Shown here piece by piece: positions 2,634 through 42,815 of a DNA stretch of 56,746 bases. Both the position numbers and the translations under genes were made by a program. The stretch's first letter is position 1. Every line of letters begins with the position of its first letter. This DNA comes from Bacillota bacterium (GTDB lineage Bacteria; Bacillota; UBA4882; UBA8346), in assembly GCA_012728785.1 (NCBI GenBank), contig JAAYEK010000174.1, forward strand, positions 1 to 56,746. Reading direction: 5' to 3'. Below the pieces are notes generated by a model. The model had not been told where the DNA came from. It made no database searches and saw only the letters and a list, made by a program, of their open reading frames with translations.

Positions 2634-3809
2634 GTGGAGCAGATGAAACTTAGAAAATGGATCCTTTTTCAATTATCCCTATTTTTACTTAGCGTCATTA
2701 TTCCTTTCCCCCAATTTTCCACAGAGGCAGTAATTAGTTCCCAAACTGTTTTTAGTCCTAATGAATTAATCATCCTTCCCAAGCCTAATCCTCCGGCTAA
2801 TCAATCCAGTTTTGGCAAAGTGGTTAAACTGGATTGGCCAAAACCTGAAGAAATTAAAGGAATCTATGCCACCGGTTGGATGGCCGGCTCTGCCAAATGG
2901 TTTCCCCGAATGGTCCAGTTCATCAATGAAACCGAATTTAACGCAATCGTAATTGATGTTAAGGATGATTGTGGGACCCTTAGTTATCATTCTCAGGTTG
3001 GTTTAGTCAACGAAATTGGGGCCGTAGAGAATAAAATAAATGACCCAAAAGCCATGATTGAAACTTTACGGGAGAACCAGATCTTTCCCATCGCTCGAAT
3101 TGTAGTATTCAAAGATCCTTTCCTGGCCAAGAAAAAAACCGAGTGGGCCGTTAAAGATATTAATGGGGGCCCATGGAAAGACCGCAAAGGTTTATATTGG
3201 GTTGACCCTTATAACCAAGAGCTTTGGGACTATATCGTCAACATCGCCGAAGAAGCGATTGCGATCGGTTTTCAAGAGATCCAGTTCGATTATGTCCGTT
3301 TCACCAGCGACGGTGATGTCAAACGGTGTGTCTACCCCTTCAATAACGGAGAATCCCGAGAAGATACTATTCAAAATTTCTTGAGATATGCCCGTACGAA
3401 ACTTCAAGCTTATCAAATACCTATTTCCGCCGATATATTTGGACTAACCACCAGCGTCCCCGATGATCAAGGAATCGGACAACAATTTGAAAAAATTATC
3501 AGTAACGTTGATATAGTCTGCCCGATGGTATACCCTTCTCATTACGCCAGTGGTACTTATGGTCTTAAAAACCCAAACCGGCAACCCTATGAAACTGTAC
3601 TTAAAGGTGTCACCGACGCTAAAAAAAGGATGGACAAAGCAGGTAATACTTCGACAACCCTTCGGCCTTGGCTTCAGGACTTCAACCTCGGTCATAATTA
3701 CGGCCGCAATGAAATCCAAGCTCAAATCAGAGCCGTTCAAGACTCCGGTGTTAAAGAATGGATCTTTTGGAATCCAAGCTGCCGTTATGACAAAGAAAAG
3801 TATAATTAA
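2634..3809 (+). CDS. Secreted DUF4015 putative glycoside hydrolase (paralogue 1)
   Basis: GIYATGWMAGSAKWFPRMVQFINETEFNAIVIDVKDDCGTLSY...QFDYVRF; paralogue of 25441-26757. Confidence 0.85.
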   Translation: MEQMKLRKWILFQLSLFLLSVIIPFPQFSTEAVISSQTVFSPNELIILPKPNPPANQSSFGKVVKLDWPKPEEIKGIYATGWMAGSAKWFPRMVQFINETEFNAIVIDVKDDCGTLSYHSQVGLVNEIGAVENKINDPKAMIETLRENQIFPIARIVVFKDPFLAKKKTEWAVKDINGGPWKDRKGLYWVDPYNQELWDYIVNIAEEAIAIGFQEIQFDYVRFTSDGDVKRCVYPFNNGESREDTIQNFLRYARTKLQAYQIPISADIFGLTTSVPDDQGIGQQFEKIISNVDIVCPMVYPSHYASGTYGLKNPNRQPYETVLKGVTDAKKRMDKAGNTSTTLRPWLQDFNLGHNYGRNEIQAQIRAVQDSGVKEWIFWNPSCRYDKEKYN

Positions 3810-4605: not shown

Positions 4606-5169
4606 TTATCTCCATGGAAAATTAAACCAACGAATATCAAATTCGATTCTTACGGTATACAGCCCAGCGGGCAAGCTTTGGCCGGGTTCGGAATAAAGAC
4701 GGTAAGTTATGGTCTCTTTATTTTGATTCTTATAATAATCAAAATAGGAATTGACCTTTACCCATTGTTGGGAAAACTGCTGAAAATTCCGACCATCTTT
4801 TGACCAATGCAATTGAGAAATGGGTATTTGATTTTCGGAACTCATGGAATCTTTTAAATAAGCGTCTGTCGCTCTAATCCCCAAATGCCAGGGCAACTTC
4901 AATCTGATAAAATCCTCTAAACCGAGTAAATGTTGGGAAACAACCGTTACTTCTTGATTTGCGGAATAATATTCTTCCGGTTCCTCCGCGTCCACTACAG
5001 TAAAAGAAATATTGGAGGGAGTCACATTGATCCTTAAAAAGGGACCTAATGCATAGACAGGCGTATCAGAAACCGCTCCCCAACCGATGGTTAACATTCC
5101 GATAATCAATAAAGGAATCCTAAGATTCTTAAAAAAAGTTCTTTTTTTCATTTTTACTTCCTTTAACAA
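4606..5169 (-). CDS. Secreted small beta-rich protein; candidate fibre subunit C of chaperone/usher-like cluster
   Basis: Signal peptide, about 187 aa, C-terminal strand LPAGLYTVRIEFDIRWF; divergent from usher-like gene. Confidence 0.55.
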   Translation of the reverse strand: MLKEVKMKKRTFFKNLRIPLLIIGMLTIGWGAVSDTPVYALGPFLRINVTPSNISFTVVDAEEPEEYYSANQEVTVVSQHLLGLEDFIRLKLPWHLGIRATDAYLKDSMSSENQIPISQLHWSKDGRNFQQFSQQWVKVNSYFDYYKNQNKETITYRLYSEPGQSLPAGLYTVRIEFDIRWFNFPWR

Positions 5170-5177
5170 AAAGGATT

Positions 5178-8132
5178 TTGATAGTTCTGCTAGAATTAAT
5201 TAGGGTTATGAAGTACTATTTTAAATGCTTTCCTTCTATTATTTCGCTAATATTTATCATTTTCCTCCTTTTGTCAAACAGTTACTCGGTATTAGCCGGT
5301 GAAACTGTCTTGAATACTGCTCTCTCTGTAACTGTGCCGGAAGAACAATCTGGAAATCCAGGCGATTTTTTAACTTATGTCTTGTCTTTTGAAAACCGGT
5401 CCAATTCTCCCATAGACTTACAAATCGAATACTTGACCGAACCGGAATGGAATATCATCGGGGATAGTATGGTTACTGTTCCAGCCAATACTAAAAACTA
5501 TTTTTTCCCCCTTACAATAATGATCCCTCAAAATGCGCCGGCAGATTTTAAAAAAGCAATTGGGGTCAGATTTAAAATCTACGGCGAAGCTTTTACCTTA
5601 CCCATAGTTAATATTCCCATTTTTGTTAATCCGGTATCCACCATTAATATTACTACTCCTGCCTCTCAAAACGGACTTAACGGTTCCACCGTCGAATATC
5701 GCATTGTCGTTACCAACTCCGGTAATACTACAGAACGCCTCGCCATCAAGAGCTCATCAGAAAATGAATGGCTTTTGGAAGTTGAACCTGCTGCCTTTGA
5801 GATTAATCCCAATGAATCTAGGCAAATCTTGGTGAAGCACCAAATACCGGGTTACTCGGAAACGGATTACGATCAGATTAAACTTATATTCTCCTGGGGT
5901 AACCAGCAAAAGGTGGTTCTGCTTACAACCGGTGTAGTTGATCAATATGATAAAATGGCCGACCGTTATTATGTTTGGCAAGGACAGGCATCCTTATCCC
6001 ACCCTAACATTTTGGAACCGGATCTAACCGATCCTAACCTCTCCTTCTCCTTAAGTGGAGATTGGAAGTCGGGCAGTGATTATCAATTTTATTTTTCCGA
6101 TCTGCTTAACGATCTTAACCGGCGTTATTTTTCCCATATTAAAACCGATCACTGGGATGTTAAGGCCGGAGATTTTTCTCTTCCCTGGCAAGGGTTGATC
6201 ACTCCCAAAAACTCTCTTGGCAATTTAAGAGTTGCTCATACTGATGGCGACCGCTCTTATGGTGTCTATACCTGGGAACCGTTGGAAAAAGACGGTGAAC
6301 GGACCTTTGGTTTAGAAGCCTTCTTTAATGAAAATTCCCGGCTTAGTCTCCTCAATGAAACAACCGGGCGATTCGACCAAAATGTTTTAGAATGGGACTA
6401 CCGATCAGACTTAACGTCTGGACTAAGATGGTCCAACTCCCTCGCCTATAATATCGCGGATTCCCACAGCTATGCTTATGGTTTCGGGATTGATCGTTTC
6501 AAAGGAAACTGGTATTTTACCTCCAATTTTGAGGCTTTAAATGAAATTAGCGACTATCTTGACAAAAAAAGATTGCAACTAACTATATATCAGCCTTTTT
6601 CCAATGATTCCATGACCATTTACAATCACTTTATTTATGAAAGCAGAACTCTTGCAGAACTTAATCCCGATCATTCAACGAATATCAAAGATTACGATGA
6701 TTACAGTCTGGAAACCCTTTTTTACTGGCCTTTCGGATTAAACCTTCGTTTTTCATTTCAATACCAATTAGCCGATGGCTCCTTTTCTAAAAATAACGCT
6801 TCACTCTTTATCGAAGATGCCTTTGAAATTGATCGTTTTCGTCATGAGTGGTGGTTAAGCCATTCCATGGATCATTCCGCTGATGACGTGGACTCGGATT
6901 ATTCCAAATTGAACTGGGAAACCGAATATGCCTTAAATAAAAATCAAGATTTAATCATCAACCCTCAACTCATTTCGAACTCAGCCTCGTCTGAAAACGA
7001 GTCGAAACTGGGATTTGGTTATCAACAACGGTTATTCCATAATAGCCTTGAATGGAAGTCTTTATTGTTTCATCATTTCTCTTCTGAAACCGAATACAGC
7101 CTTAAATGTTCCCTTGATTGGCGTATCTATCAATATCTTCTTTCATTGGAGTATATCGGAATTCAAGACAATTCCGACTATCATACCGATACTTTCAGTC
7201 TCGCAATTCGCAAAAAATTTTCGATTCCAATACCGAAACCTTTGGGGACGGTTGAAGGAATCGCTTTCCTCGACCGAAACCAAAACGGTGTTTTGGATGA
7301 TGACGAGCATCCGCTTCGCAGGGCGATCATGATTCTGGATGGTTCCACGACTTTTGAAACGGATGAAAACGGTTATTATGCTCTTCATGGGCTAACCCCA
7401 GGCGAACACCAAATCTCTCTTAATTCATTATACGAAGTGATTTATCTACCTCATACTCCGGTTACATTAGTGACTGTGAAACAATACCAAACTGTTAGAT
7501 TGGACCTGCCTTTTATTCGCTCCCAAAACATTACCGGTATTCTATATTTTGATCAAAACAAAAATGGAACTAAGGAACCGGACGAACCTAACTTAGCAGG
7601 TATTCCTATCAATTTAACCAATTCCGAAACCGGCGAGACCTTCCAAACCTATTCCAATTATGACGGGCAGTTTATCTTTTATCAACTTGCACCTGGTTCT
7701 TATGAATTTAGCTTTGACGATAACTTACTTCCCGATAACCTGCAAGGACCGTTGAAAACTGATTCCCTAGTCATTGATGCTAAAAATCAGGAGGACATAG
7801 CACTGCTAAACTTTGGTTTGCTGCCTTTTGAAAGACCTATTGAAATTGTTAAAGAAGAGGCTCAACTATTACTAATCTTGGAAAAAGAATTAATTAAAGC
7901 CGGTGAATCATTATTGATCACCATTGAATCCGGAGTCACTTTGAAAAGTTTGGAACTTCAATTGCCAACCGGCCAAAATGTTTTATTCGAAACCAAGAAC
8001 CAAAAGACCTGGAACTATCGGTGGCAAACACCAGTTAATATAAGAGCAGGTCAAGTCAAAATCAAATGTAGTGGTATAGACCTGGAAGGCACTGTCCATC
8101 AAGAAGAGCTCTTACTGGTAATAATAAAATAA
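5178..8132 (+). CDS. Usher-like secreted protein: N-terminal Ig/NPCBM-like domains, predicted outer-membrane beta-barrel-like region, two SdrD-B-like repeats, C-terminal Ig-like domain
   Basis: 984 aa, signal peptide (MKYYFKCF.. start about 5208); long alternating aromatic strand pattern aa ~250-690; GTVEGIAFLDRNQNGVLDDDEHPL and ITGILYFDQNKNGTKEPDEPNL repeats; no LPXTG or C-terminal TM. Confidence 0.6.
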   Translation: MIVLLELIRVMKYYFKCFPSIISLIFIIFLLLSNSYSVLAGETVLNTALSVTVPEEQSGNPGDFLTYVLSFENRSNSPIDLQIEYLTEPEWNIIGDSMVTVPANTKNYFFPLTIMIPQNAPADFKKAIGVRFKIYGEAFTLPIVNIPIFVNPVSTINITTPASQNGLNGSTVEYRIVVTNSGNTTERLAIKSSSENEWLLEVEPAAFEINPNESRQILVKHQIPGYSETDYDQIKLIFSWGNQQKVVLLTTGVVDQYDKMADRYYVWQGQASLSHPNILEPDLTDPNLSFSLSGDWKSGSDYQFYFSDLLNDLNRRYFSHIKTDHWDVKAGDFSLPWQGLITPKNSLGNLRVAHTDGDRSYGVYTWEPLEKDGERTFGLEAFFNENSRLSLLNETTGRFDQNVLEWDYRSDLTSGLRWSNSLAYNIADSHSYAYGFGIDRFKGNWYFTSNFEALNEISDYLDKKRLQLTIYQPFSNDSMTIYNHFIYESRTLAELNPDHSTNIKDYDDYSLETLFYWPFGLNLRFSFQYQLADGSFSKNNASLFIEDAFEIDRFRHEWWLSHSMDHSADDVDSDYSKLNWETEYALNKNQDLIINPQLISNSASSENESKLGFGYQQRLFHNSLEWKSLLFHHFSSETEYSLKCSLDWRIYQYLLSLEYIGIQDNSDYHTDTFSLAIRKKFSIPIPKPLGTVEGIAFLDRNQNGVLDDDEHPLRRAIMILDGSTTFETDENGYYALHGLTPGEHQISLNSLYEVIYLPHTPVTLVTVKQYQTVRLDLPFIRSQNITGILYFDQNKNGTKEPDEPNLAGIPINLTNSETGETFQTYSNYDGQFIFYQLAPGSYEFSFDDNLLPDNLQGPLKTDSLVIDAKNQEDIALLNFGLLPFERPIEIVKEEAQLLLILEKELIKAGESLLITIESGVTLKSLELQLPTGQNVLFETKNQKTWNYRWQTPVNIRAGQVKIKCSGIDLEGTVHQEELLLVIIK

Positions 8133-8153
8133 AAAACCCTCCACAAAAGAGAG
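8129..8153 (-). terminator. Intrinsic terminator for subunit B gene
   Basis: Minus strand GCCCTCTCTTTTGTGGAGGGTTTTTTATT. Confidence 0.75.
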
Positions 8154-8187
8154 GGCATCCAAAGAGGAAGTTTAGGTTCATTATGTT

Positions 8188-8607
8188 TTATTCACTAAAT
8201 AACAACTGATATCCGAGGTTAACCGATCCTTCGGAAACTCCCCTTACTTTAATATAAAAACGATAATTGCGCCAATCCGACTTGGCTCCGGTTATCATGG
8301 TTTCTCCCATTTGCGATCCAAAACCATGCCAAGCCCGGTTATCAATAGACCATTCCAGCTCTGGGTTGTTACTATAAGGAATCGCTACAAATCTCCATTT
8401 TCGACTGGAATTACTAAAAATCGTAACATCAACTATTTGAATCAGATCGGAACCGTTTCTTAGAGTAGACTGATTTTCTAGGTGATACCTACCGATTTCG
8501 GCTACCCGAATCGTTACGTCATTAGAGGTTCTCCCCCAAACAACCGTATTGAAGCCTAGGATTAAAATTAAAACTAATGCCCACCAAATTATCCTTTTAG
8601 ATAACAT
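8188..8607 (-). CDS. Secreted small beta-rich protein; candidate fibre subunit B, riboswitch-controlled
   Basis: MLSKRIIWWALVLILILGF signal peptide, SD AAAGGTG upstream of ATG 8607; longer ORF to 8676 runs into the riboswitch aptamer and is rejected. Confidence 0.65.
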   Translation of the reverse strand: MLSKRIIWWALVLILILGFNTVVWGRTSNDVTIRVAEIGRYHLENQSTLRNGSDLIQIVDVTIFSNSSRKWRFVAIPYSNNPELEWSIDNRAWHGFGSQMGETMITGAKSDWRNYRFYIKVRGVSEGSVNLGYQLLFSE

Positions 8608-8659
8608 AGCCCTCACACCTTTACGTAGGGGGCTACCAAAAATAAAACAACCCATTTTC

Positions 8660-8736
8660 GGAAGCCCGGCCATCATTGCTTTCGCTTTAGATCCGTGACT
8701 TTGCGTCTCCGGTTTTCACCGGATTTGCCTTTGTCG
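8660..8736 (-). promoter_or_regulatory. Cyclic-di-GMP-I (GEMM) riboswitch aptamer
   Basis: Minus strand CAAAGGCAAATCCGGTGAAAACCGGAGACGCAAAGTCACGGATCTAAAGCGAAAGCAATGATGGCCGGGCTTCCG: GGCAAA, GAAA tetraloop stem, GACGCAAAG, CACGG, ATGATGGCCGGG as in GEMM-I consensus. Confidence 0.95.
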
Positions 8737-8761
8737 AATTAAGTTGTGATTGTTCAATATT

Positions 8762-8790
8762 ATTATAACATTATGTTAAAATTTTGACAA
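8762..8790 (-). promoter_or_regulatory. SigA promoter driving riboswitch and subunit B
   Basis: TTGTCA-17 bp-TATAAT immediately downstream of chaperone stop. Confidence 0.85.
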
Positions 8791-8797
8791 CAATTAA

Positions 8798-9598
8798 TTA
8801 CGGTTTTATTTCCAAAGTAGTTTGAACGGCCTTTAAATTACGTTCGCCAAAGTCGGCTACGGCCAAACCAATATAAAACCCTGGTTTTAGATTGATGGTA
8901 TGGTCGACTAAGTCAAACTCGCGGGTGTAATCCGGCAAAATATATCCTTCCCGGAATGGAACCACCCCGACGGACTTACCCTGTTCGTCTTTGAGCTCCA
9001 ACTTACCTTTAAAGCGCAACATAGAACTACCACTATTTTTTATTCTTAAAGCAGCCTCAACCCGATTACTTTCTTGATCCCAATCTAGTTTTAACCTTTC
9101 AATCTTACCTACTCCGGTAGGAGAACCATTAATATCAATTCTAATAATATAAACCACCCTACCGGCCATCATTACTTGGACTTGGCCTGGATCGCCGCCT
9201 GGAACGGGATTAGTCTCAGCCATCAAAGCCGCCCAATAACTGCCTGATACATTTTTAGGCGTCTTGATGGTATATTCAATCTTTTGACCCCGTTTTGGCG
9301 GAAGGTTAAAGTTCTTTGGATAAAAAGAAATCCATGGGGAAGCTGACCGCTTAATGGTCCCCATGGGAAGAAACTGATAATTGCCTGAAGTAGATAACGA
9401 CCAATCCATTGGATACACTTTGACCTGGATCGATTCCTTTTCGGAACCAAAAAGATAAAACTCACCTTGATATTGGTCACCGGGATTTATTTTTAAATTT
9501 ACATCGGGAGGACTAATCCCAAGGTCTAAGGCAAAAGCCGGTGTTATAAAAATTATGAAAAGAATTAATATACTGTAAACCCGGAATAATTTGGCCAC
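8798..9598 (-). CDS. PapD-like periplasmic chaperone candidate
   Basis: Signal peptide; ASPWISFYPKNFNLPPKRGQKIEYTIKTPKNVSGSYWAALMAETNP resembles N-terminal domain of fimbrial chaperones; second beta domain; no TM anchor. Confidence 0.6.
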   Translation of the reverse strand: MAKLFRVYSILILFIIFITPAFALDLGISPPDVNLKINPGDQYQGEFYLFGSEKESIQVKVYPMDWSLSTSGNYQFLPMGTIKRSASPWISFYPKNFNLPPKRGQKIEYTIKTPKNVSGSYWAALMAETNPVPGGDPGQVQVMMAGRVVYIIRIDINGSPTGVGKIERLKLDWDQESNRVEAALRIKNSGSSMLRFKGKLELKDEQGKSVGVVPFREGYILPDYTREFDLVDHTINLKPGFYIGLAVADFGERNLKAVQTTLEIKP

Positions 9599-9618
9599 CG
9601 TATTTATTTGTCCTTTTC

Positions 9619-10098
9619 TTAAGAATTTACAACCGCTGTATAAGTAATTGTCGTATTATATGTACCGGCATCTTCGGTTTCCGGTAATTCTTCCAATTTG
9701 AACAATACTGGGTAGTTTCCCTTAGGTTTACTAGAAAACTCAAATAGTTCAACCGGAGTAGTAGCTAAAGATTGATAGGTCGCTCCGTCCGTATCCACCT
9801 TAGCTTTGAGTCTGCTCACCGGAAAAGTGGCTGAAAAATCATTGGCAGCTGAAGCATATACTTTACAACCATCACTTTTGTTTGTCTTAACGGAGATTCG
9901 AACCGTACTATTCAAATCTTTATTAGCATAACCGTCAACAAAATCATTGTCGTAAATTGTAACTGAAGCCGAACCGGTTACTGAAACCCGAGCAAAAGAA
10001 TTAATCGTAACCGTAACGATATGAGAGTTCGCCGCCAGTCCAAGGCTGCTAATGCCGAGAATTAAAACTAAAGCCATCACCCAAATTACTTTTTTCAT
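9619..10098 (-). CDS. Secreted pilin-like subunit A
   Basis: Signal peptide, HIVTVTINSFARVSVTG N-terminal strand, C-terminal DAGTYNTTITYTAVVNS strand typical of beta-sandwich fibre subunits. Confidence 0.6.
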   Translation of the reverse strand: MKKVIWVMALVLILGISSLGLAANSHIVTVTINSFARVSVTGSASVTIYDNDFVDGYANKDLNSTVRISVKTNKSDGCKVYASAANDFSATFPVSRLKAKVDTDGATYQSLATTPVELFEFSSKPKGNYPVLFKLEELPETEDAGTYNTTITYTAVVNS

Positions 10099-10129
10099 AA
10101 ATATAAACCTCCTTAAGGTCTTCCAATTT

Positions 10130-10165
10130 AAAAAAATAAAACCGACGCAATGTAAACGCCGGTTT
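10130..10165 (-). terminator. Leader terminator/attenuator upstream of subunit A
   Basis: Minus strand AAACCGGCGtttacattgCGTCGGTTTTATTTTTTT located between promoter and SD of subunit A. Confidence 0.8.
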
Positions 10166-10195
10166 CACTACTAACTCCATTAGGTTCAAGTGACC
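10161..10195 (-). promoter_or_regulatory. Candidate anti-terminator hairpin in subunit A leader
   Basis: Minus strand GGTCACTtgaacCTAAtggagTTAGtAGTGAAACC; its 3' arm shares AAACC with the terminator 5' arm. Confidence 0.5.
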
Positions 10196-10243
10196 AAATA
10201 CAAACCCAACTTCATGGTTTCAATATTCACTTTTACTAGTTAT

Positions 10244-10272
10244 ATTTTAATGTAAATATCAATAATTGTCAA
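10244..10272 (-). promoter_or_regulatory. SigA promoter for subunit A leader
   Basis: TTGACA-17 bp-TAAAAT. Confidence 0.8.
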
Positions 10273-10370: not shown

Positions 10371-11390
10371 TTACATGTTTATCGTCCAAACCGCCGGCCT
10401 AATACTGCGAAATGTAAAGAATGCAATTTTCTTCCCATCCGGGCTCCAACTTAAAGAGCCTCCCACCAAACCTACTTTATTCGTAACAAACAATATCTCC
10501 CCGGAAACTAAATTCTTAATATATAAACTACCTCTGTCATACCTTCCGTTCCCTTCTTTGACAGGAATTCGATTGGATATGAAAGCCAGCTTCTTACCGT
10601 CCGGAGAAAGGGCCGGTGAACGATTGTCATACTCATCTACAATTACCGGTTCGTTAATGTTGGTCAATGGGTTATAAGACCAGATTCCTCCTTTCCCAAA
10701 ATCCATTACTTGGTAAGTTTGATCTGAAACCGTAATACTCTTTAGACCGGGGCAAAGTTTGGTATAGTAGATCTTTCCATCTTTACCCCACCAGGGTCCA
10801 TAAATTAATTCTCCGGCTTCTCCCGCAACAACCCTTGTTTTACCATCCTCATAGTTAACCGTAAGCAGTTGAGAGTGATAAGGACCTTGCCCCCGGCTAA
10901 AAGCCAATTGAGTTCCGTCCGGCGACCAAAATGAGTCCCGATCTTCCGGTCCTTGAGTCAGTTGCCGGCCTGCCCCTCCAGAGATTTCTTTCACCCAGAT
11001 CGTCGAATTGGTGGAGTTTAACTTACCGAAATTACGTCTGGTAATGGCAATTTTAGTCCCATCCGGTGACCAGCGTGGCGAATAATCCATTAATTCTTCG
11101 GTACCGGTTAATTGAATCGGTTTCTCCTCCGGCGCCAAGTTCCACAACCAAATCTTCATTTGAGTCGCGTCTTTGCCTTGCTGTTTACCGGCAAAGGCTA
11201 AAGACTTACCATCAGGGGCCCAATCACCGGCCCAAACATCGTAGGTATCAGGTAATAGCCTGGTCTCGGTACCCACCAAGTTTGGAGCATAAGCGGGAAC
11301 AAAGAATATCGTCCCCGGTCCTTCGGCGAGGATTAATTCCGGGATAATTCCGATTAAAATCAAAAGGTAAATGATGACTGATTTTTTCAT
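10371..11390 (-). CDS. Secreted TolB-like (WD40-like/PD40) beta-propeller protein
   Basis: Signal peptide and repeated WSPDGTKIAI / WSPDGTQLAF / LSPDGKKLAF / WSPDGKKIAFF motifs. Confidence 0.85.
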   Translation of the reverse strand: MKKSVIIYLLILIGIIPELILAEGPGTIFFVPAYAPNLVGTETRLLPDTYDVWAGDWAPDGKSLAFAGKQQGKDATQMKIWLWNLAPEEKPIQLTGTEELMDYSPRWSPDGTKIAITRRNFGKLNSTNSTIWVKEISGGAGRQLTQGPEDRDSFWSPDGTQLAFSRGQGPYHSQLLTVNYEDGKTRVVAGEAGELIYGPWWGKDGKIYYTKLCPGLKSITVSDQTYQVMDFGKGGIWSYNPLTNINEPVIVDEYDNRSPALSPDGKKLAFISNRIPVKEGNGRYDRGSLYIKNLVSGEILFVTNKVGLVGGSLSWSPDGKKIAFFTFRSIRPAVWTINM

Positions 11391-15468: not shown

Positions 15469-16401
15469 TTATGAGCGGCGACGATCCCTAAAAAATTGAC
15501 TTCCAGGCATCGATTGAGCGTATTTTAATACTTCAAAACCGATAACCTCTGCCTCAAGCCAGTCCTTGATTGTTCGTTCTTCATTGCTGACAATTCCGAT
15601 GGCTAGAGTCATCACCGGCCACTGTTCCAAGATTCCTCTCCGGTTAGAGATAGCCATCCCTCCCCGATTACGGTCTTCCTCATTATAGAAATTGATAATT
15701 CCTTCATCAAAACGATTGATAATATTTCGGCCCATCTCCTCGGCAGGTCCTGGTTCCATCAGAACCGCAAAATCGTCCCCACCCAAGTGATAAGATCCAC
15801 TGTTTAAAGCACCCACTTTGTCGACTTCTTCTTGAATAATATTTGACAAAAATTTGATGACTTGATTGCCTTGTTCAAACCCATATGCTCTATTATACTT
15901 AGCAAATCCTTTAATATCGAAAAAAAGCAGATTGAATAATTTTTCGCCACTTAGACGGGCGGAAATCTCCTCTTGAAGCTGAGTATGTCCAGGTAGTTCT
16001 GTCAATGGATTTATCACTTTAAATACCTTGGTCTTAATTATCTGAGAATTTACCCTACTCAGTAACGTTTTAGGAGTGAAGGGTTTTACCAATATATCGC
16101 TGACCTTAAGCTTGTAGTTGTTGAATTCATCCTCATTAAATTGGGAGTCAATCATCAGGATAATCGGAATGTGGTTTAACCCAAGACGATTCTTCATCTC
16201 GGAACAAACCTGATATCCGTTTATCTTTGGTAGGTTGTAGTTTATCACCAGCAAATCAGGAGGATTAGCGGCGATCTTGTCTAACGCCTCTTCTCCATCA
16301 TAAGCGCTAACTACCCAATAACCGGCATTGGAAAGTTTAATTACCGCCAATTCGACAATCCTAGTCTCGGAATCGACAATTAGGATGCGTTCTCCTTCCA
16401 C
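15469..16401 (-). CDS. Response regulator with GGDEF diguanylate-cyclase-like domain
   Basis: REC domain ERILIVDSETRIVELAVIKLSNAGYWVVSAYDGEEAL; YHLGGDDFAVLM signature. Confidence 0.85.
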   Translation of the reverse strand: MEGERILIVDSETRIVELAVIKLSNAGYWVVSAYDGEEALDKIAANPPDLLVINYNLPKINGYQVCSEMKNRLGLNHIPIILMIDSQFNEDEFNNYKLKVSDILVKPFTPKTLLSRVNSQIIKTKVFKVINPLTELPGHTQLQEEISARLSGEKLFNLLFFDIKGFAKYNRAYGFEQGNQVIKFLSNIIQEEVDKVGALNSGSYHLGGDDFAVLMEPGPAEEMGRNIINRFDEGIINFYNEEDRNRGGMAISNRRGILEQWPVMTLAIGIVSNEERTIKDWLEAEVIGFEVLKYAQSMPGSQFFRDRRRS

Positions 16402-25440: not shown

Positions 25441-26757
25441 TTACCTTACTAAGCTTGGTGTTTTTTTATTCTGAGCCGGTAAGATTTTATCCAACGCCGG
25501 ATCCAACAAGTCGGGAGGAAGATCAAGTTTCTTTTGGATCTCTTGTTTCAAACGATACTTGCGAATATCATAGCGATTACCCGGATTCCAAAAAATCCAC
25601 TCTTGGAGTCCGACATCCTGAACCGCCTTGATTTGAGCAATTAACTGTTCCCGACCGTAATGATTACGTAATGAAAAGTCCTGAAGCCAGGGGCGGATGA
25701 TTACCGGCTTTTTTAGGGTAGCCGCTTTCCGTTTGGCATCCATCATACTACGGTAAACAGTTTGATAAGGATTTCGGTCCGGGTCCGGAATATTAAAATC
25801 GCCCCGGGCATAGTGGGAAGGATAAACCATTGGGCAGATAATATCAACATTTTCGGCAATTTTTTCAAATACCTGGCCGATACCGATATCCCCCGATGCT
25901 GTGCAGGTTGCTCCGAAAACATCGGCCGATACTTTCACTCCCAATGGCTTTAGTTCTTGATAAGCATATTTTAAAAAGTCAGCAATCGTGTCCGACTTTG
26001 ACCTAACGCCTGCCGATAAATAACGGCAATTCTTAATTATTCCATCACTTGTAAAACGGACATAATCAAACTGGATTTCTAAAAAACCATGACGGGCGGC
26101 TTCTTTGGCTATCGCTACATTATACTCCCATACATTTTTATTATAGGGATCTACCCAGGCTTGACCATTAAAATCCTTCCAAATACCACCCTGAACGTTT
26201 TTCACAGCCAAATCCGGCCTTTTTTGCGCCAGATAAGGATCTTGGAAAGTAACGATTCTGGCTATAGGGTAAATATTGTTTTGACGCAACAGTTTGGTTG
26301 TCTTTTCCGGATCAAACTTAGGAAAGCTGGCACCGAGCATCTGGGCCAAAGGAACTTTACTTATATAGCTGATCCGGCCGGAATCATCCTTGATATCAAT
26401 AACCATGCTATTAACCTCGGTTTTTTCAGTAAAGCTCAACATGGTTTCGATATACTTTGACTTACCTGCCATCCAGCTGGTAGTATAAACCCCTTTAACG
26501 ATTGGGGTTTCTTTTTCCAACAAACTATGAAACGGATTGACATGTTTCAAAAGATTGGTTTCTTTTTTCGGATTGCCAATTTTAACTGGGGCTATTTGAT
26601 TTTGGTTATCATTTTTTTCCAAAAAACCGTCTTTTTCGACTGTCATATCGCCCATTAACGGCTGTTCGCTTTTTACCGGCCTCATTCCCAAGTTGATCAC
26701 TAAAAATAAGATGGTGCTAATTACTAAAACATTAACCTTGGCTGCTTTAAACAACAC
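25441..26757 (-). CDS. DUF4015 putative glycoside hydrolase (paralogue 2)
   Basis: GVYTTSWMAGKSKYIETMLSFTEKTEVNSMVIDIKDDSGRISY; paralogue of 2634-3809. Confidence 0.85.
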   Translation of the reverse strand: MLFKAAKVNVLVISTILFLVINLGMRPVKSEQPLMGDMTVEKDGFLEKNDNQNQIAPVKIGNPKKETNLLKHVNPFHSLLEKETPIVKGVYTTSWMAGKSKYIETMLSFTEKTEVNSMVIDIKDDSGRISYISKVPLAQMLGASFPKFDPEKTTKLLRQNNIYPIARIVTFQDPYLAQKRPDLAVKNVQGGIWKDFNGQAWVDPYNKNVWEYNVAIAKEAARHGFLEIQFDYVRFTSDGIIKNCRYLSAGVRSKSDTIADFLKYAYQELKPLGVKVSADVFGATCTASGDIGIGQVFEKIAENVDIICPMVYPSHYARGDFNIPDPDRNPYQTVYRSMMDAKRKAATLKKPVIIRPWLQDFSLRNHYGREQLIAQIKAVQDVGLQEWIFWNPGNRYDIRKYRLKQEIQKKLDLPPDLLDPALDKILPAQNKKTPSLVR

Positions 26758-40092: not shown

Positions 40093-42018
40093 TTACTTTC
40101 TCTCCTTAACCTCACTTAAAATCCGGCCTGCAATCTCCCCAACCTTCTGCGCTCCTAGGTCTCCTTCTTTCCGCGCCCGGACCGCCACCGTTCCATCGGC
40201 GGTCTCTCGCTCGCCAACTACCAGCATGTATGGAACCTTCTGCATCTGAGCCTCGCGGATCCTGTAACCGATCTTCTCATTCCTGGAGTCAATCTCAACC
40301 CTAACCCCCTGCTTCCGCAAGTCCTCCATCACCGTTCGGGCATACTCATGGTTCTCCGGCATAACCGGCAACACCACCGCTTGGACCGGCGCCAGCCAAA
40401 GGGGTAGCGCTCCTTCATAATGCTCCAGAAGAATTCCGAAGAACCTCTCAATCGAACCCAACAACGCCCGGTGAATCATATAAGGCCTGTGATCTGCGCT
40501 ATCGCTTCCCTTATAAGCCAGATCAAACCGTTCCGGTTCGTTAAAATCAAACTGAATCGTGGAACATTGCCATTCTCGGCCCAAGGCATCCTTAATCTTA
40601 AGGTCGATCTTCGGGCCGTAGAAAGCGCCGCCCCCTTCATCCACTTCACTAGGAAGACCGGTCTTGGCAATCGCCTGTCGCAAGGCTTCCGTAGCAGCAT
40701 CCCAACGGTCTTGTTCCCCGACAGAACCCTCAGGGCGGGTCGCCAGATAAAGCTTGAAATTCTCAAATCCGAAGGAGCGAATCATATCCAAACAAAAATT
40801 CAAAGTCCGGTCAATCTCTTCCGGCATTTGGTCCGGGCGGCAGAAAATATGGGCGTCATCCTGGGTAAACCCGCGTACCCGAAGTAAACCGTGTAAAACG
40901 CCACTCTTCTCATACCGATAAACCGTGCCCAACTCCGCCCACCGAAAAGGTAGTTCCCGGTAAGACCGGCCCCGATTCTTATAGATGGCAATATGGAAAG
41001 GACAGTTCATTGGTTTGGCGTAAAAAGGCTGTCCATCAATGTCCATCGGCGCATACATATTCTCCTGATAAAAGCCTAAATGACCACTGGTCTCCCAAAG
41101 ATTGGCCTTACCAATATGGGGGGTATATACCAGCTCATAACCATTTTTATAATGTTCTTCTTTCCAAAAATTCTCAATCTCGTTTCGGATCCTAGCGCCT
41201 TTCGGATGCCAAAGCACCAGGCCTCCGCCGATCTGGTCATCAATGGAGAAAAGATCCAAATCCTTCCCTAGCTTTCTATGGTCCCGCTTGGCCGCTTCCT
41301 CCAAGAACTTCAAGTAATTATCCAACTGTGACTTGGAATCAAAGGCCGTTCCATAGATCCGTTGCAGCATCTCTCGGGAGGAGTCGCCCCGCCAGTAAGC
41401 CCCGGCCACGGACATCAATTTAAAAGCTTTGATCTTATTGGTACTTGGCAGATGTGGACCGCGGCAAAGATCGTTAAAATCGCCTTGTTTGTAAAAGGAG
41501 ATAGTTCCGTCCTCCAGGTTTTCAACTAACTCTTGCTTATACTTCTCACCCTTGCCTTGAAAATACTGCAAAGCTTCCGCTTTACTCATCTCATACCTTT
41601 CAAAAGGTAAATCCGCAGCAATAATCTTAGCCATCTCCGCTTCAATCTTAGCCAAATCATCTACGGTAAGCGGTTGCGGTAGATCAAAGTCATAGTAAAA
41701 CCCGTTCTCAATCGCCGGTCCAATGGCCAACTTGGCGCCAGGGTAAAGGTTGCATACCGCTTGGGCCATGACATGGGACGCGGAATGGCGTAAAATTTTA
41801 ATTCCTTCCGGATCCCCTGGTTTGATTAGCCGTAATTCGACATCGCCTTTAAGAGGCTGATCTACATCAATTAACTGGCCGTTAGCCGAAGCGGCGATTA
41901 CTTCTTTGGCCAAACGTGGGCCGATTGACTCCGCTACTTGCAAGGGAGTGGTTCCATCCGTAAACTCCCTGACGCTTTGATCGGGAAAAATCACTTTCAT
42001 TTCTGTTGCTCCTTCCAT
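40093..42018 (-). CDS. thrS: Threonyl-tRNA synthetase
   Basis: Full-length ThrRS: TGS, HSASHVMAQAV, GPHLPSTNKI, MNCPFHIAIYKN, LPLWLAPVQ. Confidence 0.98.
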   Translation of the reverse strand: MEGATEMKVIFPDQSVREFTDGTTPLQVAESIGPRLAKEVIAASANGQLIDVDQPLKGDVELRLIKPGDPEGIKILRHSASHVMAQAVCNLYPGAKLAIGPAIENGFYYDFDLPQPLTVDDLAKIEAEMAKIIAADLPFERYEMSKAEALQYFQGKGEKYKQELVENLEDGTISFYKQGDFNDLCRGPHLPSTNKIKAFKLMSVAGAYWRGDSSREMLQRIYGTAFDSKSQLDNYLKFLEEAAKRDHRKLGKDLDLFSIDDQIGGGLVLWHPKGARIRNEIENFWKEEHYKNGYELVYTPHIGKANLWETSGHLGFYQENMYAPMDIDGQPFYAKPMNCPFHIAIYKNRGRSYRELPFRWAELGTVYRYEKSGVLHGLLRVRGFTQDDAHIFCRPDQMPEEIDRTLNFCLDMIRSFGFENFKLYLATRPEGSVGEQDRWDAATEALRQAIAKTGLPSEVDEGGGAFYGPKIDLKIKDALGREWQCSTIQFDFNEPERFDLAYKGSDSADHRPYMIHRALLGSIERFFGILLEHYEGALPLWLAPVQAVVLPVMPENHEYARTVMEDLRKQGVRVEIDSRNEKIGYRIREAQMQKVPYMLVVGERETADGTVAVRARKEGDLGAQKVGEIAGRILSEVKERK

Positions 42019-42570: not shown

Positions 42571-42815
42571 AAAAACCCCACTCCCTAAAAAAGGGACGGG
42601 GTTAACCGCGGTTCCACCCTTGTTGGCTAAAAATAGCCCACTTGATCCGGCCATAACGGAGCCTCCCGCCAGCTTGCGCTAAAAAGCTTTTTCACCGGAG
42701 CATCCAAGGCGGTTTTGACTGTCCGTACTGGAAAGATTCCAGCACCCTTTCCTCTCTTTAAGCCGTCAACAGCCTGCTTCCTCTTCATCTGCCACAATAT
42801 ATAAAATAAGTATAA
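42571..42815 (-). promoter_or_regulatory. T-box leader (NUDIX-thrS operon)
   Basis: Minus strand AGAGAGG...GGGTGCTGG (stem I), AAGGGTGGAACCGCGG T-box sequence, terminator AACCCCGTCCCttttttAGGGAGTGGGGTTTTTT. Confidence 0.93.

Follow-up and report, generated by a model that had tools for sequence, protein, structure and literature searches.

The DNA analysed here (hereafter the window) is a stretch of 56,746 nucleotides, positions 1 to 56,746 of contig JAAYEK010000174.1 from a Bacillota bacterium (assembly GCA_012728785.1). Near one end it carries a cluster of five genes for secreted proteins, which we propose, with a probability of roughly two in three, to be a chaperone-usher-like fibre-assembly system of diderm Bacillota that is switched on by cyclic di-GMP (c-di-GMP). 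In our assessment, this system is a variant of the chaperone-usher kind, with predicted c-di-GMP control and, unexpectedly, a connection to the WxL system found in monoderm Firmicutes. An initial annotation, made from the letters of the window alone, had suggested a divergent chaperone-usher-type system. The conserved cluster of chaperone, usher-like and subunit genes, the riboswitches and the diderm host speak for that suggestion, but the status of the largest protein, of 984 amino acids (aa), as a true usher does not follow from the analysis.

In the proposed mechanism, small beta-sandwich subunits (9619–10098, 8188–8607 and 4606–5151) would reach the periplasm by the Sec pathway, where a 266-aa protein (8798–9598) would hold them by donor-strand complementation, in which it contributes a beta strand. 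The 984-aa protein (5178–8132), as a putative outer-membrane pore for assembly and translocation, formed by a beta-barrel and followed by two transthyretin-like domains, would thread these subunits into a surface fibre. High c-di-GMP would stabilise a c-di-GMP-II aptamer and prevent formation of an overlapping terminator, which would allow transcription of the subunit-chaperone operon. A c-di-GMP-I aptamer would separately tune the second subunit gene, with an uncertain sign that is perhaps OFF at the level of translation.

Gene cluster, conservation and host envelope

All five secreted-protein genes of the initial annotation are real open reading frames (ORFs), present where it had placed them (span 4606–10098). 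Synteny, which it had named as a check on its reading, is kept at two levels. First, the order and orientation of the five genes are identical in the window and in three other loci of the family, one in the same genus (L014) and two in other genera (L015 and L016), which makes three genera in all. Because the five genes recur in this way, the cluster is no chance grouping, and chance neighbours were ruled out as its explanation. Identity in these loci is 37–62% for the 984-aa protein and 50–72% for the 266-aa protein, and the same GntR gene adjoins the cluster in two of the three. At a wider scale, a large usher-like gene adjoins 40 of the 44 evaluable two-domain chaperone genes in the fetched loci, which come from many families; three contigs that end too early were excluded, and the loci were chosen by chaperone matches, so that the count describes co-occurrence given a chaperone and is no unbiased survey. 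A profile of the 266-aa protein has matches in 66 of 398 genomes sampled from the phylum, and a broader chaperone profile has matches in all 22 high-quality genomes of the class. The features of the cluster, all of which lie on the minus strand except the usher-like gene, are as follows.

10244–10272, minus strand: sigma-70-like promoter, TTGACA-17-TAAAAT, before the c-di-GMP-II switch (consensus scan 11/12; by itself no proof of function)
10149–10231, minus strand: c-di-GMP-II riboswitch aptamer before subunit 1 (Rfam RF01786, 65.8 bits against a gathering cut-off of 53.5)
10135–10169, minus strand: intrinsic terminator (hairpin and T tract), the best terminator-like hairpin of the region, with a 5' arm, AACCGGC, that overlaps the aptamer's 3' strand
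9619–10098, minus strand: secreted beta-rich subunit candidate 1, 159 aa, with a signal-peptide-like N terminus (orthologs in L014, L015 and L016; wider family in alignment A10; homologous to the other two small proteins)
8798–9598, minus strand: two-Ig-domain periplasmic chaperone-like protein, 266 aa, without a C-terminal transmembrane helix (AlphaFold2, Foldseek, wider-family profile)
8762–8790, minus strand: sigma-70-like promoter, TTGTCA-17-TATAAT with TG before the second hexamer, before the c-di-GMP-I switch (consensus scan 11/12; by itself no proof of function)
8656–8738, minus strand: c-di-GMP-I aptamer of the GGC variant (c-di-GMP-I-GGC) before subunit 2 (Rfam RF03167, 67.6 bits against a gathering cut-off of 59)
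8188–8607, minus strand: secreted beta-rich subunit candidate 2, 139 aa from the ATG at 8607 (orthologs in alignments A4/A11)
8136–8156, minus strand: terminator-like hairpin between convergent genes (hairpin scan)
5178–8132, plus strand: usher-like protein, 984 aa (Pfam SdrD_B; homologs adjoining chaperone genes; C-terminal domains like those of sister ushers)
4606–5169, minus strand: secreted beta-rich subunit candidate 3, 181 aa from the ATG at 5151, divergent from the usher-like gene (orthologs in alignment A5)

This arrangement suggests two transcripts, one with promoter, c-di-GMP-II switch, subunit and chaperone, and the other with promoter, c-di-GMP-I switch, second subunit and terminator; the usher-like gene reads toward the latter. 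The ATG at 5208 is likely a better start for the usher-like gene than 5178, as is the ATG at 5151 for subunit candidate 3.

The genome that carries the window contig (C164) measures 3.70 Mb and is 99.4% complete. Its close relatives with names are the "Bacillota bacterium" metagenome-assembled genomes JAAYHS010000089.1 and JARKQY010000023.1, in line with the host phylum first assumed. Because genes for LpxC (E 1.3e-86) and Omp85 (E 2.7e-41) are present, the host should have a lipopolysaccharide (LPS) outer membrane and thus be diderm, as the initial annotation had considered possible; Limnochordia is a diderm class (PMC11456536).

Two c-di-GMP riboswitch classes

The initial annotation had recognised a GEMM-I riboswitch and an "attenuator-like leader". 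The former is real and scores above the Rfam cut-off as the c-di-GMP-I-GGC aptamer. The latter does contain a terminator (10169–10135), but the element as a whole is a second riboswitch, of the c-di-GMP-II class, fused to that terminator. The two best promoter-like matches of the region are those just upstream of the two aptamers.

Both aptamers are conserved parts of the system. A c-di-GMP-II switch stands before 18 of 19 orthologous chaperone genes of the class (genome G003 being the exception), and 18 of the 25 c-di-GMP-II matches in 29 genomes sit at the chaperone cluster; the others lie before type IV pilus operons (L119, in the same genome as the window, and L120), before an exopolysaccharide-type operon (L122) and elsewhere. 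Likewise, a class I aptamer precedes the second subunit gene in L014–L016, L053–L055 and L057–L062. Both classes occur together in ten loci from two families, where the subunit-chaperone operon follows class II and the second subunit follows class I.

At 17 of 18 loci, the 5' arm of the terminator is the aptamer's own AACCGGC together with the 3' strand of P1, and at two loci the terminator arms have undergone a matched change, from CCGGC/GCCGG to CCGAC/GUCGG. Because the ligand-bound aptamer should block the overlapping terminator, the class II element is predicted to be an ON switch. For class I, the 3' end of the aptamer can apparently pair with a stretch that would otherwise occlude the ribosome site, which would correspond to an OFF switch. 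In folding calculations, the Shine-Dalgarno sequence was less accessible with the aptamer locked at 10 of 11 loci, but since this effect is mostly modest, and close to nil in the window itself, the OFF sign is proposed only tentatively. The 17 GGDEF matches in the host genome make c-di-GMP signalling plausible.

The nearest precedent is found in Clostridioides difficile, in which class I c-di-GMP riboswitches act as OFF switches and those of class II mostly as transcriptional ON switches (PMC11477304). As in that species, both classes occur here in one genome and are used for surface structures, and class II is again found before a type IV pilus operon (L119, L120). In contrast, both classes lie here within one cluster, before two neighbouring chaperone-usher-like transcripts, an arrangement kept in 10 loci.

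Several further observations concern c-di-GMP elements. About 5 kb from the cluster, the window encodes a response regulator with a degenerate GGDEF-like domain (GGDDF; 15469–16401). The pilus operons of L119 (G000:C255, ~23.76 kb) and L120 (G002:C54), which belong to the same genus, contain pilB/pilT/pilC-like, pilin and prepilin peptidase genes, named by reading. In L118 (G007:C245:2019–2446), three tandem c-di-GMP-II riboswitches occupy about 430 bases before a small secreted-protein gene. In L053 (5553–6242), the second-subunit ORF seems to start inside the c-di-GMP-I aptamer (ATGATGGCCGGG), which may thus cover the start codon.

Chaperone-like, subunit and usher-like proteins

The initial annotation had expected two Ig domains in the 266-aa protein. 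The AlphaFold2 model, built from three sequences (pLDDT 73), indeed has an N-terminal signal helix, two beta-sandwich domains and no C-terminal helix. In a Foldseek search of the PDB, its best match was the WxLIP of Enterococcus (3.0e-11), followed by CsuC (2.0e-8), CfaA, CupB2, YadV, FimC, Caf1M, EcpB and PapD (2e-8 to 1e-6). TM-scores for the chaperone matches are 0.4–0.5, because the model places the two domains poorly with respect to each other. A sequence profile of the protein matches WxLIP (EfmWxLIP1) over its full length (E 1.7e-9) and EcpB weakly (0.022). In comparisons with hhalign, all two-domain chaperones taken together reach 94% over 207 columns with nine chaperones of Escherichia coli K-12, and 93% with EcpB, versus less than 1% for unrelated control proteins; window-type and sister-type chaperones are homologous (99.9% over 243 columns). 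Pro60 of EcpB is invariant across the chaperone superfamily (PMC4654587), and the corresponding proline is kept in 12 of 13 window-type and 10 of 10 sister-type chaperones. The model and these matches support a two-Ig-domain protein of chaperone-type fold. The PapD-like character first noted thus stands at the level of profile and fold, but not as a Pfam match.

The three small proteins belong to one superfamily (hhalign 96–99% between families): the family of subunit 2 aligns with that of subunit 1 at 99% over about 147 columns, and the family of subunit 3 does so at 96.9%. They have in common the core (I)P(V/I)SxLxW..DG..(Y/F)..L, and two of the three have a C-terminal AGxY strand; N-terminal residues alternate (HxVTVTI). 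Extra subunit copies are present at some loci (L054, L055, L058–L062). None of the small proteins has a Pfam match of any kind, and a spore-coat-U-type system was rejected on this absence, by Pfam scan only.

The 984-aa protein consists of an N-terminal Ig-like region (aa 49–254), a beta-rich, barrel-like region (aa 254–690), two SdrD_B/transthyretin-like domains (aa 690–850) and a C-terminal Ig-like domain (aa 895–984). SdrD_B/CarboxypepD_reg is matched twice at about aa 690–850 (Pfam SdrD_B, E 1.3e-15), in agreement with the SdrD-B-like repeats seen initially. Naming the window proteins by Pfam/NCBIfam yields just such SdrD_B-type and generic Ig-like matches, all in this protein. As in ushers, two transthyretin-like beta-sandwich domains follow the barrel-like region.

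The relation to ushers comes from a set of sister loci (L013, at G000:C4 in the same genome, L076, L078, L080–L085, L087 and L089), which are subunit-chaperone-usher operons. Their ushers match E. coli ushers in local hhalign comparisons (95.8% over 329 columns, co-linear; 90.8% with HtrE alone), versus at most 0.3% for LptD, FhuA, FepA, BamA and BtuB. A global comparison gave 99% over 789 columns, but the global mode failed with single sequences, and only the local result is relied on. One sister usher reaches Pfam Usher (PF00577) weakly, below the cut-off (E 1.6e-4; 0.0016 in another scan). The C-terminal domains of window-type and sister ushers align at 99.8% over 209 columns, a pooled usher-like profile aligns to FimD 701–841 (89.9%), and a further group, the type C loci, aligns with the window-type usher-like protein over 787 columns. 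The link from the 984-aa protein to ushers is indirect, running through the C-terminal domains of the sister ushers.

A third architecture is found in the same family and phylum, at L017–L021 (G008, G009, G004, G002), L070 and L093–L095, where a tandem chaperone-like protein of 510–600 aa lies beside a secretin that takes the place of the usher (typed by Pfam as PF00263 only in L020). These loci also encode an N0/STN protein with a beta-rich C terminus and pilin-like secreted proteins. A type IV pilus or secretin system was rejected as the identity of the cluster in the window, since those systems occupy separate loci (L119; L017–L021).

Other genes of the window include one for a secreted PD40/TolB-like propeller protein immediately upstream of the cluster (10371–11390), which has the same place in L015 and L111, and a gene with a DUF4015 putative glycosyl hydrolase domain (2634–3809), which 25441–26757 resembles by reading. 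A T-box leader (42589–42797, minus strand) lies upstream of a threonyl-tRNA-synthetase-like gene (40093–42018) with a NUDIX-like gene between them, both named by reading.

Competing readings and significance

The likeness to archaic and alternative chaperone-usher systems (Csu, ECP, CFA/I) extends to several features: a two-Ig chaperone of CsuC/EcpB/CfaA-like fold with the invariant proline, a large usher-like protein encoded next to it that has two transthyretin-like domains towards its C terminus, several small beta subunits that are paralogs of one another, a diderm host, and sister ushers homologous to those of E. coli. The differences are that the chaperone is closest to WxLIP and is devoid of the Arg89 signature, that the barrel-like part of the 984-aa protein is not similar to ushers, with N-terminal Ig domains replacing the usher N-domain and SdrD_B-type domains at the C-terminal side, and that the usher-like gene runs towards one subunit gene and away from another, with two riboswitches in the cluster.

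A number of results weigh against the chaperone-usher reading. Among solved structures, the 266-aa protein comes closest not to PapD but to WxLIP, which is a protein of the cell wall; the Pfam scan gave no PapD match (PapD_N) for this protein, and Pfam/NCBIfam gave no PapD or usher match among the window proteins. The 94% obtained with E. coli chaperones needs the wider family, and the window-type subset alone reaches 22% (hhalign). Arg89 of EcpB and CsuC, which lies in strand F of domain 1 and binds the subunit carboxylate, marks archaic and alternative chaperones (PMC4654587); it is absent here, the aligned column being S/A/T in the window type and mostly G/T in the sister type. Subunit profiles found no relative of known structure in the PDB, and because no solved structure is recognisably related to the subunits, donor-strand complementation is something that we infer. 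For the 984-aa protein, AlphaFold2 (three sequences) gave a pLDDT of 47 overall and of about 24 in the barrel region, where the model is unusable. In a barrel-only profile comparison, aa 254–690 had no detectable similarity to the barrels of E. coli or sister ushers; five control outer-membrane proteins gave nothing above noise, the PDB gave no match to this segment, and Pfam Usher (PF00577; a 24-stranded barrel with a plug domain) gave none to the whole protein. The segment has 26 amphipathic strand peaks versus 14.7 ± 3.0 in shuffled sequences, a count compatible with a barrel of about 24 strands. The measure is unspecific, as Ig domains also score high and a strand count cannot separate a barrel from beta-sandwiches. 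The barrel-like region of the initial annotation is thus consistent with strand periodicity, but is accompanied neither by usher similarity nor by a usable model, and the 984-aa protein is not established as a true usher.

Because the barrel segments of the window type and the sister type are dissimilar, the window-type pore may have been replaced, or may have changed so far that its relationship can no longer be seen. Replacement would mean chaperone-assisted outer-membrane export through a pore of non-usher ancestry, with barrel exchanged and plug lost, that keeps the usher-type C-terminal domains. In its favour are the homology to sister ushers in those domains (99.8% over 209 columns) next to barrel and N-terminal parts with no detectable homology, the count of about 26 amphipathic strands, and the length of the barrel-like region, which at about 435 aa (about 595 aa in sister ushers) could leave no room for a plug domain. 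However, a true usher barrel whose sequence had drifted fast would look no different, and we consider replacement quite improbable.

According to another explanation, the cluster is a diderm relative of the WxL surface clusters and forms neither pore nor fibre. The 266-aa protein would then be a WxLIP-like scaffold that keeps the small beta proteins attached to the cell wall, and the 984-aa protein would be a large surface adhesin composed of Ig domains, a beta-rich stalk and SdrD_B repeats. The best matches of the 266-aa protein point in this direction, namely EfmWxLIP1 in profile searches (E 2e-9, full length) and WxLIP in Foldseek (3e-11); in WxL clusters, too, a WxLIP is found together with a small and a large, adhesive WxL protein (PMC10599100), SdrD_B is a domain type characteristic of adhesins, and the barrel of the 984-aa protein is unproven. 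The 266-aa protein is nevertheless devoid of the C-terminal transmembrane helix of WxLIP (its C-terminal end is LKAVQTTLEIKP, and the AlphaFold2 model has no helix there), no WxL domain was found among the small proteins in the Pfam scan, the sister loci, whose chaperones are homologous to this protein, encode ushers that are homologs of those of E. coli, and the host has LPS outer-membrane genes. We therefore regard this explanation as unlikely. Compared with the WxLIP (DUF916-DUF3324) clusters of Lactobacillales and Bacillales, the present cluster shares the two-Ig architecture, with the best match in both sequence and fold, and the combination of small and large beta proteins; it differs in its diderm host, the missing helix and WxL domains, and the usher-like partner gene.

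Of all results, the similarity to WxLIP surprised us most, and a common origin of WxLIP and this chaperone is possible. AlphaFold2 predicts that a strand completes the WxL sandwich when WxLIP is modelled with WxL (PMC10599100); the text of that study on WxLIP never mentions chaperones or ushers. We entertain the tentative and somewhat doubtful idea that the chaperone described here is a missing link between the chaperones of diderm chaperone-usher systems and the WxLIP of monoderms. WxL/WxLIP clusters would then be the remnant of an ancestral system after loss of the outer membrane and the usher, in which the chaperone gained a membrane anchor and kept its subunit by strand donation, while the window-type usher barrel would have been replaced or drastically changed.

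The chaperone-usher pathway is described as Gram-negative (PMC9452303), and our literature search found no report of a chaperone-usher-like system in Bacillota. If the chaperone-usher-like reading is true, strand-donating fibre assembly exists in diderm Bacillota. Two unrelated classes of c-di-GMP riboswitch stand before neighbouring transcripts of what would be one surface machine, whose fibre would then be switched directly by RNA sensors. The same reading, if true, would link the system in a testable way to the WxL proteins on the surface of enterococci, listeria and lactobacilli, and would bear on how the surface of Firmicutes changed upon loss of the outer membrane.

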